Positions 10,972-16,501 of a stretch of DNA of 64,000 nt are shown here, one piece after another. Source of the DNA: Pseudofrankia saprophytica (GTDB taxonomy: Bacteria; Actinomycetota; Actinomycetes; Frankiales; Frankiaceae); contig NZ_KI912266.1 in NCBI RefSeq assembly GCF_000235425.2, positions 2,300,142 to 2,364,141 of the forward strand, read 5' to 3'. Below the pieces are notes generated by a model that did not search any database, was not told the DNA's origin, and worked only from the letters and a program-made list of their open reading frames with translations. Each line of letters opens with the position of its first letter. The first letter of the stretch is position 1. A program made the translations under genes and the position numbers.

Positions 10972-13578
10972 GTGACCGACCTGGACATCGAGGACGACCG
11001 GGAGCGGCCCCGGCGTCCCCAGCCGGACGGCTCACGGCGGGACGCTCCCGCGGGCCGTCCCTGGACGCCCGAGGTGGAGCCGCGCGGCGCGGCGGCGCCC
11101 GGGCCCGCCGCCGGGCAGCGGCCGCCGGCGCCCGCCGGCCCGGGGGAGCCGCCGCGTGCCCGCGGCGACGACGCGCGCGCCCGTGATGACGTTCACGCCC
11201 GTGATGACGTTCACGCCCGCGACGACGCCCGCCCCCGCGACGACGATCCGCGGGCCGGACGGCCCGTCCGGCCGGGCGGGCCCCGCCGACCCGCCCAGGT
11301 CGACCCGCCCGAGCCACCTCGTAATCCTGACCGGCCGGAGCCGCCTGACCGGTCCGGGCGGGCCGAGCGGGCCGGCCGAGCGCGCCCCGACGGGCCGGCC
11401 GCCGCCGAGCGCACCGAGGTGATCTCGCGCGCGGACGCGCGTCCGAGCAGTCCTGCCGCCCCAGAGCGCACCGAGGTGATCTCCCGTCCGGACGTGCGCT
11501 CGAGCAGCCCGGCCGCCGCCGAGCGCACCGAGGTGATCTCCCGCGCCGACGCGCGTGGGGAGCGCACCCGCGTCCAGCGCCCGGTTGGTGATCATGGAGC
11601 CGCGCCGCGCCGCGCCGTCCCCACCACCGCGCCGCCGCCCGCCGAGTCGTTCGTGCCCGCGGCCGCGCGGAAGCCGGGGCGCCAGGGCGGCCAGCCCGCC
11701 TCGCCGGCCGGACCGGCCGCGGGACGCCCGCGGGACGGGCAGGACCCCCACCCCCACCCCCACCGCCGGACCGGGACCGGCAGGCCGCGGGAGGAGGGGC
11801 AACAGACACCCGCTCGCTCGCGCGAGGACCACGTCCTGCCTCAGCCCTTCCAAAACGGCTTCATGAACAGCTTCACCCAGACGATCGACCTCACCGCGCT
11901 GCGCCGCCGGCTCGAGGAACAGGACGCGGCCGGCCGCACCGACGCCACGGCCCGGCTGCACGGGCGAGACCGGACCGGCGCCGATTCGGACGGCACCCAG
12001 CTCCTGCACCGCGACCCGGCCGGGCACCGCCGGCGGCCACCGGCGGACGGCGGGGACGAGCTGGGCCTGCGCGACCTGGACGCCGTCGAGGAGCCGCGCA
12101 AGCCCGCGGCGGCCACCTGGGCCCGCGGCGAAGAAAAAGCGCCGGCCAAGGGCTCGGTCCGCAGCCGCGCCATGTGGACGCTGCTCGACCAGCTCATCTC
12201 CAGCGGCACCAACTCGATCCTGATGTTCATCGTCGCGCGGGAGGTCACCAAGTCGGAGTTCGGCGCCTTCTCGGCCGCCTTCGCGGTGTTCGCCGTCGTC
12301 ATCGGGTTCTCCAAGGCCACCGGCGGTCAGCCGTTGGGCATCCGCTACTCCGGTGCTCCGCGGTCGGTGTTCTCGGCCGCGGCGGCGAAGGCCACCGGCT
12401 CGGCGCTTGTGCTCGGCCTGATCGCCGGGTTCGGCTGCGCGGTGGTCGGCGCGCTGCTGGGCGGCGCGGTCGGCACGGCGCTCGTGACGCTCGCGGTGGT
12501 GCTGCCGGGCCTGCTCGTGCAGGACCTGTGGCGGCAGGTGTTCTTCGCGCAGGGCCGCCCGGCGGCGGCGGCGGCCAACGACGGGGTCTGGGGCGTCGTC
12601 CAGATCGTCGGCGTGGCCGTGCTTCTGGTCCGCCACGTCGCGCTCGCCTCGCCGATGCTGCTCGCCTGGGGCGCGGCCGCGGCCGTGGCCGCCCTGATCG
12701 GCGTGGTGCAGGCCGGGTTCTGGCCCGCCCCCAGCCGCGCGTTGGACTGGGTCCGCGAGCACCGGGACATCAACGGCTACCTCGCGGCCGAGTTCGTCAC
12801 CGTGCAGGGCGCGCTGAACACCACCCTGCTGGTGATCGGTGCCATCAGCACGATCGAGCTGCTCGGCTCGCTGCGCGGCGTGCAGACCGTGCTCGGCCCG
12901 ACGACGATCTTCGCGATCGGCATCGTCAGCTGGGCGATTCCGGAGTTCTCCCAGCGCAAGGACATGAGGGCCGCCGCCCGGGTGCGTGCGGCCTACCTGC
13001 TGTCCGCGGCCGTCGCCGCCATGGGCATCGTCTGGGGCCTGGCCTTCCTCGTCTTCGGTCAGATCGAGACCGGCGGGATGCCACTCGGCGAGCATCTGCT
13101 CGGCCCCACCTGGGCCGGGACGCACCACCTGCTGGGGCTTTCGATCATCCAACAGGCTGGCGCGGCGTCCACAGTAGGGGTGAGCTGCATGCTCATCGCT
13201 CTCGGCCGAGCCAAGGACACCTTCCGCCTGAACGTGATCATGGCGCCGCAGCTTCTGCTCTACCCGGTCATCGGCGCGCTGGTCGGCGGCGGGACCGGCG
13301 CGGTGATCGGTTTTATCGCGGCCAACTGGGTCATGGTGCCGGCGTGGTTCCGGCTGCTCGGCCGCGCCGCGAAGGAGGCCGAGCAGGCGTGGGACGAGAC
13401 CCAGGCCGCGCAGGGACAAGGGCCCCGCGATCCCGGGGCCGGGGGAGACCAGCCGGACCGGGTGGATGACCGGCTGGAGCACAGCGACCGGCGGGACCGG
13501 CGCGGCGAGCGGGACCGGGACCAGCGGCCCGGTCAGGGACGCGGCGCGCCGGCATCAAAGCACCTGAGCGTGGAGTGA
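10972..13578 (+). CDS. Wzx/MATE-like polysaccharide flippase with long repeat-bearing cytoplasmic tail
   Basis: About 868 residues. Residues from about 400 to 825 form many hydrophobic helices in the pattern of Wzx/MOP flippases (RAMWTLLDQLISSGTNSI opens it), which move lipid-linked glycans across the membrane. The first 395 residues are Pro/Arg/Asp-rich and disordered. They contain short RDDVHA repeats (about 73-90) and three tandem 19-residue units starting ERTEVIS at about 146, 165 and 184. The C-terminal 50 residues are also charged and disordered. GTG 10972 is preferred over the longer frame from 10870, whose extra residues are Arg/Pro-rich. It lies between the methyltransferase and a GT-like gene with which it almost overlaps. 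Confidence 0.85.
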   Translation: MTDLDIEDDRERPRRPQPDGSRRDAPAGRPWTPEVEPRGAAAPGPAAGQRPPAPAGPGEPPRARGDDARARDDVHARDDVHARDDARPRDDDPRAGRPVRPGGPRRPAQVDPPEPPRNPDRPEPPDRSGRAERAGRARPDGPAAAERTEVISRADARPSSPAAPERTEVISRPDVRSSSPAAAERTEVISRADARGERTRVQRPVGDHGAAPRRAVPTTAPPPAESFVPAAARKPGRQGGQPASPAGPAAGRPRDGQDPHPHPHRRTGTGRPREEGQQTPARSREDHVLPQPFQNGFMNSFTQTIDLTALRRRLEEQDAAGRTDATARLHGRDRTGADSDGTQLLHRDPAGHRRRPPADGGDELGLRDLDAVEEPRKPAAATWARGEEKAPAKGSVRSRAMWTLLDQLISSGTNSILMFIVAREVTKSEFGAFSAAFAVFAVVIGFSKATGGQPLGIRYSGAPRSVFSAAAAKATGSALVLGLIAGFGCAVVGALLGGAVGTALVTLAVVLPGLLVQDLWRQVFFAQGRPAAAAANDGVWGVVQIVGVAVLLVRHVALASPMLLAWGAAAAVAALIGVVQAGFWPAPSRALDWVREHRDINGYLAAEFVTVQGALNTTLLVIGAISTIELLGSLRGVQTVLGPTTIFAIGIVSWAIPEFSQRKDMRAAARVRAAYLLSAAVAAMGIVWGLAFLVFGQIETGGMPLGEHLLGPTWAGTHHLLGLSIIQQAGAASTVGVSCMLIALGRAKDTFRLNVIMAPQLLLYPVIGALVGGGTGAVIGFIAANWVMVPAWFRLLGRAAKEAEQAWDETQAAQGQGPRDPGAGGDQPDRVDDRLEHSDRRDRRGERDRDQRPGQGRGAPASKHLSVE
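11407..11577 (+). repeat. Three tandem 57-bp in-frame repeats
   Basis: The 20-mer GAGCGCACCGAGGTGATCTC is identical at 11407, 11464 and 11521, giving an exact 57-base period. Each unit encodes ERTEVISR followed by an Asp-Ala/Val-Arg and Ser/Ala/Pro spacer in the flippase N-terminal tail. Confidence 0.95.
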
Positions 13579-14734: not shown

Positions 14735-16270
14735 GTGAGCTCAGCTGGTTCTCAGACGGGCGACGGCGGGAACGCGCCGGCGTTGTCACTGCTGCGGGTC
14801 CTCGGGCGCCGCTGGTTCCACATCGTGATTGCTGTGGTCGTCGCGGGCGCGCTGGGTCTGATCGTCAGCATGGCGGTCACCCCGACCTACAAGTCGACCG
14901 CTCGCGTCTTCCTCTCCACCGACGCGACCGAGGCGGGCGGCTCCGTCGACCTCAGTCGAGTGGTGCAGACACAGGCGGAGCTGGCCACGTCGAAGCAGGC
15001 CGTCACGCAGGTGGCGACCAAGCTGCACCAGAACCCTGGTTATGTCGCGGCGCACGTCACCGCGGTGCCGGCGGACTCCGCCTACTACTTCACGATCACC
15101 GCGCTGGCGGACACCCAGCTCAGGGCGAACCAGCTGGTCAGCAACACCCGGGACGTCTACAAGACCCTGCTGACGAACTACAACGGCGGTGACCAGGCCA
15201 CCGTCGACGCGCTCCAGAAGGCGTGGAACGAAGTACGGACGCAGCTCGGCGCCGCCACCCCGGGCAGCCCGAACTACAACGTTCTCAACGACACGTTGAC
15301 CAAGCTGAACACGAAGCTCACCGACGCGAAGGTGGCGCAGGCCATCTCGGCGACCACGGTCGGCTTCACCGAGGACCCGAACGACGCGGGCCGAATCGCG
15401 CCCAAGCCGTTCACCAGCGTTCTGATCGCCGGGCTCATTGGGCTCTTCGTCGCCATCGCCGTCATCTGGGTCCGCTACCTGCGCCGGCCGACGGTGCTCG
15501 ACGGCCGGGCGGCCGCAGACTCCCTCGGCGCGCCGCTGATCGTCGGCGCCTCCGGCGTCACGCCAAGCATCGACACGATCGTCTCGGCGATGGCGGCGGT
15601 GCTCTCACCGACGGTCAAGGTCGTGGCCCTCACGCCGGCGGCCGCCGGCGACCTGACCTCCGAGACGGTGGCCGGCGTCGCGGCCAGCTGGTCCGACGAC
15701 CAGGGCGTCGTGCTCGTCCTCGACGCCTCGCCCAGCTCCGAGGTCCGTTCCATGCTGGAGCGGCTGCCGCGGGCGACCTCCGGGGAACTGCCGCGGTGGG
15801 CGCACGAGCCGACCTGCCTCGCCCGGTCCTCCGGGAGCGGCCGGGGCCATGTGCTCTACAACCGGGTGTCGCCGTCGCGGGCGTCCCGGCCGGGCGGGCT
15901 CGCGCCCATCCTGGCCGACCGCGCGCCGGTCGTCGACCTCGTGCTGCTGCTGACGCCGCCGCTGACCGACCTGCCGATGACCGCTGCGTCCGCGCTGCAG
16001 GCCGACGCCGTCGTCGTCATCACCTCGCCGGACACCCGCACCGACGAGCTCGCGTCGGTGCCGCGGGACTGGCCGGCGCTCGCGGAGCGGATCGTCGGCG
16101 TCATCCACGCCGAGCGGGGCGGATTTCGCCCCTCGACGATAGCGGCGGAGACCCGTGGCGGCGCCCGCCCGACCGTCGGCGGCACCATCGACCGGGATCT
16201 GGACCACCGCGACGGCGACCCCGAGGTCACCGACCGCTACGCCCGCCCCAGCGGCGGCAGGGAGTACTAG
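14735..16270 (+). CDS. Wzz-type polysaccharide chain-length/co-polymerase protein without kinase domain
   Basis: A 511-residue protein with the Wzz topology: a cytoplasmic start, a transmembrane helix at about 27-49 ending in TPTYKSTARVFLS, an extracytoplasmic helical domain (about 50-225) and a second helix at about 228-247 (SVLIAGLIGLFVAIAVIW). The cytoplasmic C-terminus resembles the P-loop fold of tyrosine autokinases (VVALTPAAAGDLTSETVAG near 290) but has no GxxxGKT/S Walker A, so it is unlikely to bind ATP. It should set polymer length with the Wzy-type protein at 16876. GTG start with GAGG ten bases upstream. A strong terminator follows. Confidence 0.85.
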   Translation: MSSAGSQTGDGGNAPALSLLRVLGRRWFHIVIAVVVAGALGLIVSMAVTPTYKSTARVFLSTDATEAGGSVDLSRVVQTQAELATSKQAVTQVATKLHQNPGYVAAHVTAVPADSAYYFTITALADTQLRANQLVSNTRDVYKTLLTNYNGGDQATVDALQKAWNEVRTQLGAATPGSPNYNVLNDTLTKLNTKLTDAKVAQAISATTVGFTEDPNDAGRIAPKPFTSVLIAGLIGLFVAIAVIWVRYLRRPTVLDGRAAADSLGAPLIVGASGVTPSIDTIVSAMAAVLSPTVKVVALTPAAAGDLTSETVAGVAASWSDDQGVVLVLDASPSSEVRSMLERLPRATSGELPRWAHEPTCLARSSGSGRGHVLYNRVSPSRASRPGGLAPILADRAPVVDLVLLLTPPLTDLPMTAASALQADAVVVITSPDTRTDELASVPRDWPALAERIVGVIHAERGGFRPSTIAAETRGGARPTVGGTIDRDLDHRDGDPEVTDRYARPSGGREY

Positions 16271-16429: not shown

Positions 16430-16501
16430 CTTCAGCCCGCCTGAACCTTCAGCCCGCCTGAACCTTCAGGCCCGCCTGAACGTGCTTCAGGACGCCTGAA
16501 C
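16430..16501. repeat. Four tandem 17-18-mers, each a small palindrome
   Basis: Units at 16430-16446, 16447-16463, 16464-16481 and 16485-16501. The first two are identical (CTTCAGCCCGCCTGAAC); the others differ by one or two bases. Each unit holds TTCAG(G) facing CCTGAA, so each can fold on itself or bind a dimeric protein. Confidence 0.9.

Follow-up and report, generated by a model that had tools for sequence, protein, structure and literature searches.

Repeated threonine motifs in the N-terminal tail of a Wzx-like flippase of Pseudofrankia saprophytica: probable docking sites for FHA domains

A gene for an apparent polysaccharide flippase in Pseudofrankia saprophytica encodes a long tail in which one threonine motif, ERTEVIS, recurs in tandem, and this raises the question of what the tail is for. 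The gene lies in a window of 64,000 nucleotides (the whole stretch of DNA that was analysed), to which all coordinates given without a contig refer. A preliminary description of the sequence proposed that the repeated threonines are docking sites for FHA domains. The gene, its main parts and one neighbor are as follows.

10972 to 13578, plus strand: gene for the putative Wzx-like MOP flippase, 868 aa, GTG start
10972 to 12150, plus strand: predicted disordered N-terminal tail, residues 1-393, pLDDT below 50 over most of its length
11890 to 11952, plus strand: short predicted helix, residues 307-327 (AlphaFold model)
12157 to 13416, plus strand: predicted MOP-fold membrane domain, residues 396-815 (AlphaFold model, Foldseek)
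14735 to 16270, plus strand: neighboring gene for a Wzz-like chain-length protein (PF02706, E 6.6e-9)

The GTG start at 10972 is supported by a 93%-identical relative (L054), where ATG stands at the corresponding TDLDIEDD. In an AlphaFold model built from a 23-row alignment, the membrane domain (396-815) is modelled with confidence and has the MOP fold, and pLDDT is below 50 in most of residues 1-390. The tail, which has many charged residues, is thus predicted to be disordered, as the preliminary description had it, with the correction that it is N-terminal. Among the Foldseek matches listed for this model, ranking by E-value puts the MATE protein NorM first and ranking by target-normalised TM puts WzxE, the lipid III flippase, first (0.74); MurJ appears at a TM of 0.57-0.63. 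The membrane domain has no Pfam match at E 0.001; the best Pfam model, Polysacc_synt, reaches only E 8.5 and 6.1 bits against a cut-off of 28.2, which does not identify the family. The adjoining genes, which encode Wzz-like, dTDP-sugar isomerase, epimerase and methyltransferase proteins, provide a polysaccharide context, and glycosyltransferase and nucleotidyltransferase genes lie at most about 17 kb away. A 17-base short tandem repeat, CTTCAGCCCGCCTGAAC, is found 3' of the Wzz-like gene (16430-16501). By the modelled fold and genomic context only, there is a fair case that the 868-residue protein is a Wzx-like flippase, and the flippase label used earlier can stand on that footing. We ruled out MviN/MurJ as its identity, as it has no match to the MurJ profile and the single PF03023 match in the genome is MurJ, encoded by a separate gene elsewhere.

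The threonine sites in the tail are listed here.

11407 to 11463, plus strand: repeat unit 1, ERTEVISRADARPSSPAAP, with T148 (TRF, exact-core search, unit comparison)
11464 to 11520, plus strand: repeat unit 2, ERTEVISRPDVRSSSPAAA, with T167 (TRF, exact-core search, unit comparison)
11521 to 11577, plus strand: repeat unit 3, ERTEVISRADARGERTRVQ, with T186; its 3' end is a degenerate ERT (11560-11577)
11875 to 11913, plus strand: conserved island TQTIDLTALRRRL with T302 and T304, the latter with Leu at +3; pattern in 25 of 41 tails
11989 to 12012, plus strand: extra site DGTQLLHR, with T342 (motif count, sequence)

An identical 20-mer, GAGCGCACCGAGGTGATCTC, starts at 11407, 11464 and 11521, a spacing of 57. 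No such exact repeat arose in 100 shuffles, and TRF reports a period of 57 with 2.8 copies and 82% matches. Comparing the units two at a time gives 10, 16 and 19 mismatches over 57 bases, and only the first 20 bases are invariant; the 57-base period is exact, as described before, but in sequence only the core is. Across the three units the ERTEVISR codons have undergone synonymous changes only (positions 21 and 24), while the remainder of the unit alters residues. Unit 3 leads into a fourth ERT (ERTRVQ) with no hydrophobic residue at +3. Counted from the GTG at 10972, the three ERTEVIS threonines are residues 148, 167 and 186, just as reported before, and the Thr-Gln-Leu-Leu placed near residue 343 has its Thr at 342, an offset of one residue. 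The TQTIDL site (T302/T304) is an additional tail site that the preliminary description did not include. In the window tail by itself, the motif [DE]xT[QE]xΦ (Φ, hydrophobic) occurs 4 times against 0.03 in shuffles, and with two repeat units taken out it still occurs 2 times against 0.02. Further tandem repeats are present in the tail at 11165-11245, where an 18-base repeat codes for HARDDV runs, and at 11349-11401.

The membrane domain has a match in 31 of 35 Frankiaceae genomes, and the family accounts for 41 of the 80 named loci (L108-L150 minus L140 and L146). Two nearer groups of relatives mostly have long tails that can be aligned only at short islands, and a third group, at 42-47% identity, has short tails. 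Throughout, the tail was taken as the last 350 residues of the open frame, which may take in residues before the true start, and alignments A1 and A2 excluded L061, L069 and others. The closest named relatives are Pseudofrankia sp. BMG5.36 (93%) and P. asymbiotica (86%). ERTEVIS-type copies number three in the window, two in BMG5.36, one in P. asymbiotica, two in F. nepalensis and none in AgB1.9, and full-motif sites number four, three, two, three and four in the same order, AgB1.9 having four [DE]GTQ sites in place of ERTEVIS. The three tandem copies are a local amplification of one such site in one lineage; that the number of repeats tunes a response is a guess. Homologues that keep the repeat and lack the TxxI core, which would speak against the docking proposal, were found in small part only, as ERTGRAR, ERTGRPR and ERTRVP stand beside ERTEVIS in L108 and L109. 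We set aside a long tail outside the Frankiaceae: upstream frames were obtained for 16 of the 39 non-Frankiaceae loci, several of them short (18-71 aa) and others long with the start unsettled.

To describe the motif across the family we used 41 of 71 Frankiaceae tails, 30 rows more than 96% alike having been removed. The full motif [DE]xT[QE]xΦ occurs 43 times in this set, against 0.7 (maximum 4) in shuffles, and is present in 26 tails; the shorter T[QE]xΦ occurs 59 times against 6.2 and is present in 29. The serine control S[QE]xΦ (7 against 6.1) and the form with the hydrophobic residue shifted to +4 (5 against 6.3) show no excess in the same 41 tails. Two other controls are above chance, namely [DE]xS[QE]xΦ (5 against 0.7), whose occurrences are of two types, DLS[EQ]EI and DLSQLL, in tails that are related, and the reversed motif (7 against 0.8). 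The full motif is missing from 15 of the 41 tails, and T[QE]xΦ from 12. The fifteen comprise all ten of the short-tailed paralogue at 42-47% identity, L111 (its tail truncated by a contig end), the divergent relatives L120, L125 and L127 (52-54% identity), and L121, which bears DQTDYI and STQVM instead. In the tails of other clades the motif sits elsewhere in the tail.

A count that presupposes no motif gives a similar picture. In the 28 tails of at least 200 residues, hydrophobic residues after Thr peak at +3, with a frequency of 0.26 (background 0.11; Ser 0.12), and the accompanying preferences are an acidic residue or Q/E at -2, with Q/E again at +1. The excess of Thr over Ser at +3 has a p of 3e-9 in these pooled tails, which are related, so that the counts are not independent; weaker excesses for Thr appear at +2 (99/520 vs 65/539, p 0.002) and +5 (79/509 vs 52/534, p 0.005). 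Six representatives from different clades contain the motif 14 times against 0.14 in shuffles. In these six, a hydrophobic residue stands at +3 of 37/114 Thr and 11/115 Ser (p 2e-5), no significant difference is seen at +1, +2 or +5, and the balance at +4 favors Ser (Thr 7/114 vs Ser 19/114). Our control was a set of 303 ORFs from the window and the 41 Frankiaceae loci, chosen by a simple GC3 rule, which may include false ORFs and are partly interrelated. They contain 16 motifs in 122,498 residues and none in 18,979 disorder-like residues, and show no gap between Thr and Ser at +3 (0.236 vs 0.244 overall; 0.141 vs 0.131 in disorder-like residues), with small differences at some other offsets. 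As far as sequence can indicate, the tail sites match the "pT+3" rule for FHA ligands, with Thr rather than Ser and a hydrophobic residue at +3, and a few serine forms also exist. The T302/T304 island follows a pattern of its own, xx[DE]LxxLxx[RL]L, found in 25 of the 41 non-redundant tails; counting back three residues from the first Leu gives Thr in 24 of these and Ala in one, the Leu itself belonging to the search pattern.

Two further membrane proteins of this genome bear on how widely the motif is used. The separate MurJ (L188, G000:C1:1391678-1393003) has its own long N-terminal tail, containing DQTMVVPR. In 30 Frankiaceae MurJ tails, drawn from the loci listed and taken with the membrane start cut off, a hydrophobic residue stands at +3 of 93/483 Thr and 24/426 Ser, the excess for Thr being confined to +3, and [DEN]xTxxΦ occurs 28 times against 4.4 in shuffles while [DEN]xSxxΦ occurs once against 3.9; these tails are related and were not thinned, so p values overstate the difference. 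A weak kinase-profile match lies downstream of the MurJ frame end (C1:1393622-1394137), perhaps a detached pseudokinase. We set aside the idea of a code common to actinomycete MurJ proteins at large. Matches were found in 71 non-Frankiaceae genomes, one locus was taken from each of 40 genera, and the 25 tails longer than 80 aa have a hydrophobic residue at +3 of 12/143 Thr and 19/164 Ser, a weak indication that the Thr/+3 signature is missing there, many of the open frames probably running through other sequence.

The second is a DedA-type (VTT, PF09335) membrane protein (L088, G000:C1:1447733-1448554) with HDTTQVLVR in its C-terminal tail. It was picked by a DNA-pattern match, so the evidence lies in its relatives only. 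Thirty of the listed DedA-type loci including L088, not thinned for relatedness, have tails of at least 50 aa in 21 cases, and 19 of these 21 contain TxxΦ with an Arg at either +4 or +5 (observed 19, shuffled 1.6), as do none of the nine shorter tails. The serine form is also in excess (7 against 1.9), and specificity for Thr is therefore not clear in this protein. The same motif occurs in a further protein (L105, G000:C2:89314-89337), as DDDRTQLIAR within a stretch that resembles a linker. We did not retain the strict DNA pattern as a marker of many clients; it has 25 genomic sites, as against 5 for a reversed control pattern, and 3 of the 25 are in the flippase gene; of the others, two whole frames were examined (L088 and L105). 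It is possible, though we consider it doubtful, that one phosphothreonine/FHA code operates on several transporters with a link to lipid carriers, namely the Wzx-like flippase, MurJ and the DedA-type protein. Disordered tails would then do what a pseudokinase domain does on mycobacterial MurJ, and a kinase-FHA hub would use them to co-ordinate lipid-carrier traffic for the wall and for exopolysaccharide. The serine excess in the DedA-type tails weakens this shared-code reading.

The docking proposal calls for FHA- and PknB-like genes, and the genome has both a potential reader and Ser/Thr kinases, as a profile search gave 22 FHA-domain matches and 83 kinase matches, 80 of the latter above the cut-off. 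FhaA is present (FhaA_N at E 1.6e-39, plus an FHA domain), its gene adjoining a second FHA gene with two kinase genes nearby. Seven ABC transporters have two FHA domains each (L001, L002, L006, L007, L008, L009 and L010) and are candidate multivalent partners resembling Rv1747. One FHA gene (G000:C1:2278206-2278457) precedes the flippase array by about 33 kb, and we set aside the idea that an FHA gene is linked to the flippase. FHA genes are common, so their presence in the genome is weak evidence, and a site may be a kinase target with no FHA protein to read it. Most FHA domains are described as recognizing phosphothreonine only, in a portion of PMC3146460, and specificity classes for pTxxD and pTxxI/V are distinguished in a portion of PMC6468809.

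We consider it probable that the flippase tail is an FHA docking array, in which kinase target sites are read by an FHA protein. This is the best reading because the motif grammar is strongly over-represented in tails that can hardly be aligned, and because FhaA, other FHA proteins and many kinases are encoded. The 15 tails lacking the full motif, the above-chance counts of [DE]xS[QE]xΦ and of the reversed motif, and the weaker excesses for Thr at +2 and +5 tell against it, as do, in small part, the ERT units without the core in L108 and L109. The tail would be a flexible array of Ser/Thr-kinase targets that follow [DE]-x-T-[QE]-x-[ILV]-x-R, together with a single T-x-[DE]-L site running into the short helix. 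A kinase would phosphorylate the tail threonines, and an FHA-domain protein would read them, FhaA being the first candidate and the double-FHA ABC transporters others. The partner might recruit, block or position the flippase, with an effect on flipping that could be of either sign, and export of the lipid-linked sugar unit would then follow envelope kinase signals.

We think it unlikely that the sites are kinase targets with no FHA reader, the charge of the phosphate itself altering tail conformation, membrane contact or flippase activity. The richness of the tail in charged residues would suit such a role, and the PknB (QTAAV) and FhaA (HTGQF) phosphopeptides of mycobacteria, as given in part of PMC4322841, also place a hydrophobic residue at +3, so that kinases and FHA domains may favor the same sequences; the predominance of Thr over Ser where +3 is hydrophobic, however, fits an FHA reader and is less expected of Ser/Thr kinases in general. 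It is improbable that the motif is an unphosphorylated binding peptide, such as a beta strand joining the sheet of a partner, with Thr, Val and Ile favored as beta-branched residues. ERTEVI, TQII, TQVV and TEYI do look strand-prone, and the pooled tails show weaker excesses at +2 and +5, in keeping with a strand, but TMVVPR and TVALPR of MurJ have little in common except the Thr and the +3 hydrophobic, and the hydrophobic excess in MurJ tails is at +3 only. A functionless neutral minisatellite in a disordered high-GC tail is very improbable, for although the tail has other tandem repeats (11165-11245, 11349-11401), copy number differs among relatives and some ERT units lack the core, the ERTEVISR codons show only synonymous changes beside a remainder that changes residues, and other clades bear the motif elsewhere in their tails, at 14 against 0.14 in six of them.

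If FHA docking is the correct reading, kinase-FHA control in the actinobacteria would not be confined to peptidoglycan but would also govern how other lipid-linked sugars are flipped, it would work via short repeated motifs in disordered tails, and the sharing of lipid carrier between wall and exopolysaccharide in the Frankiaceae would become a simple peptide-binding question. The similar motifs on two other transporter-type proteins point to a possible common on/off switch. Among the matches listed in our literature search, apparently no paper is on FHA control of a Wzx flippase, and a search with Frankia gave nothing on FHA and flippases; no paper was found that combines four of the five topics DedA, FHA, threonine kinase, undecaprenyl phosphate and MurJ.

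Several known systems share parts of this arrangement. The N-terminal ETTS phosphosite of GarA/OdhI has an acid before the Thr and a hydrophobic residue at +3 and is read by an FHA domain, with the difference that the site is read within one small metabolic regulator. In SQ/TQ cluster domains, repeated TQ sites are bound in their phosphothreonine form by the FHA domains of Rad53 and Dun1 (from a section of PMC3146460), although these clusters are eukaryotic and are served by other kinases. The phosphothreonine form of the CwlM peptide NDRPTGTFTFAELLA binds the FHA domain of FhaA, according to part of PMC6180346, and the island SFTQTIDLTALRRRL opens in a similar way, with T-x-T-hydrophobic, a short likeness judged by eye; CwlM itself is not a flippase, unlike the Wzx-like protein here. 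The nearest parallel is mycobacterial MurJ/MviN, for which control with PknB and FhaA goes back to Gee et al. 2012, as cited in PMC11898655 and PMC6180346; phosphorylated MurJ/MviN and CwlM bind FhaA, in the accounts excerpted from the same two papers. MurJ and, by its predicted fold and context, the protein described here are MOP-fold flippases of a lipid-linked precursor, and FhaA and kinases are encoded here too. In mycobacterial MurJ, a pseudokinase domain at the C terminus recruits FhaA (PMC6180346, in part), whereas the candidate sites here are several short motifs, located in the disordered N-terminal tail of a different, Wzx-like flippase. The flippase array is likely to be a variant of control of the MurJ-FhaA type.
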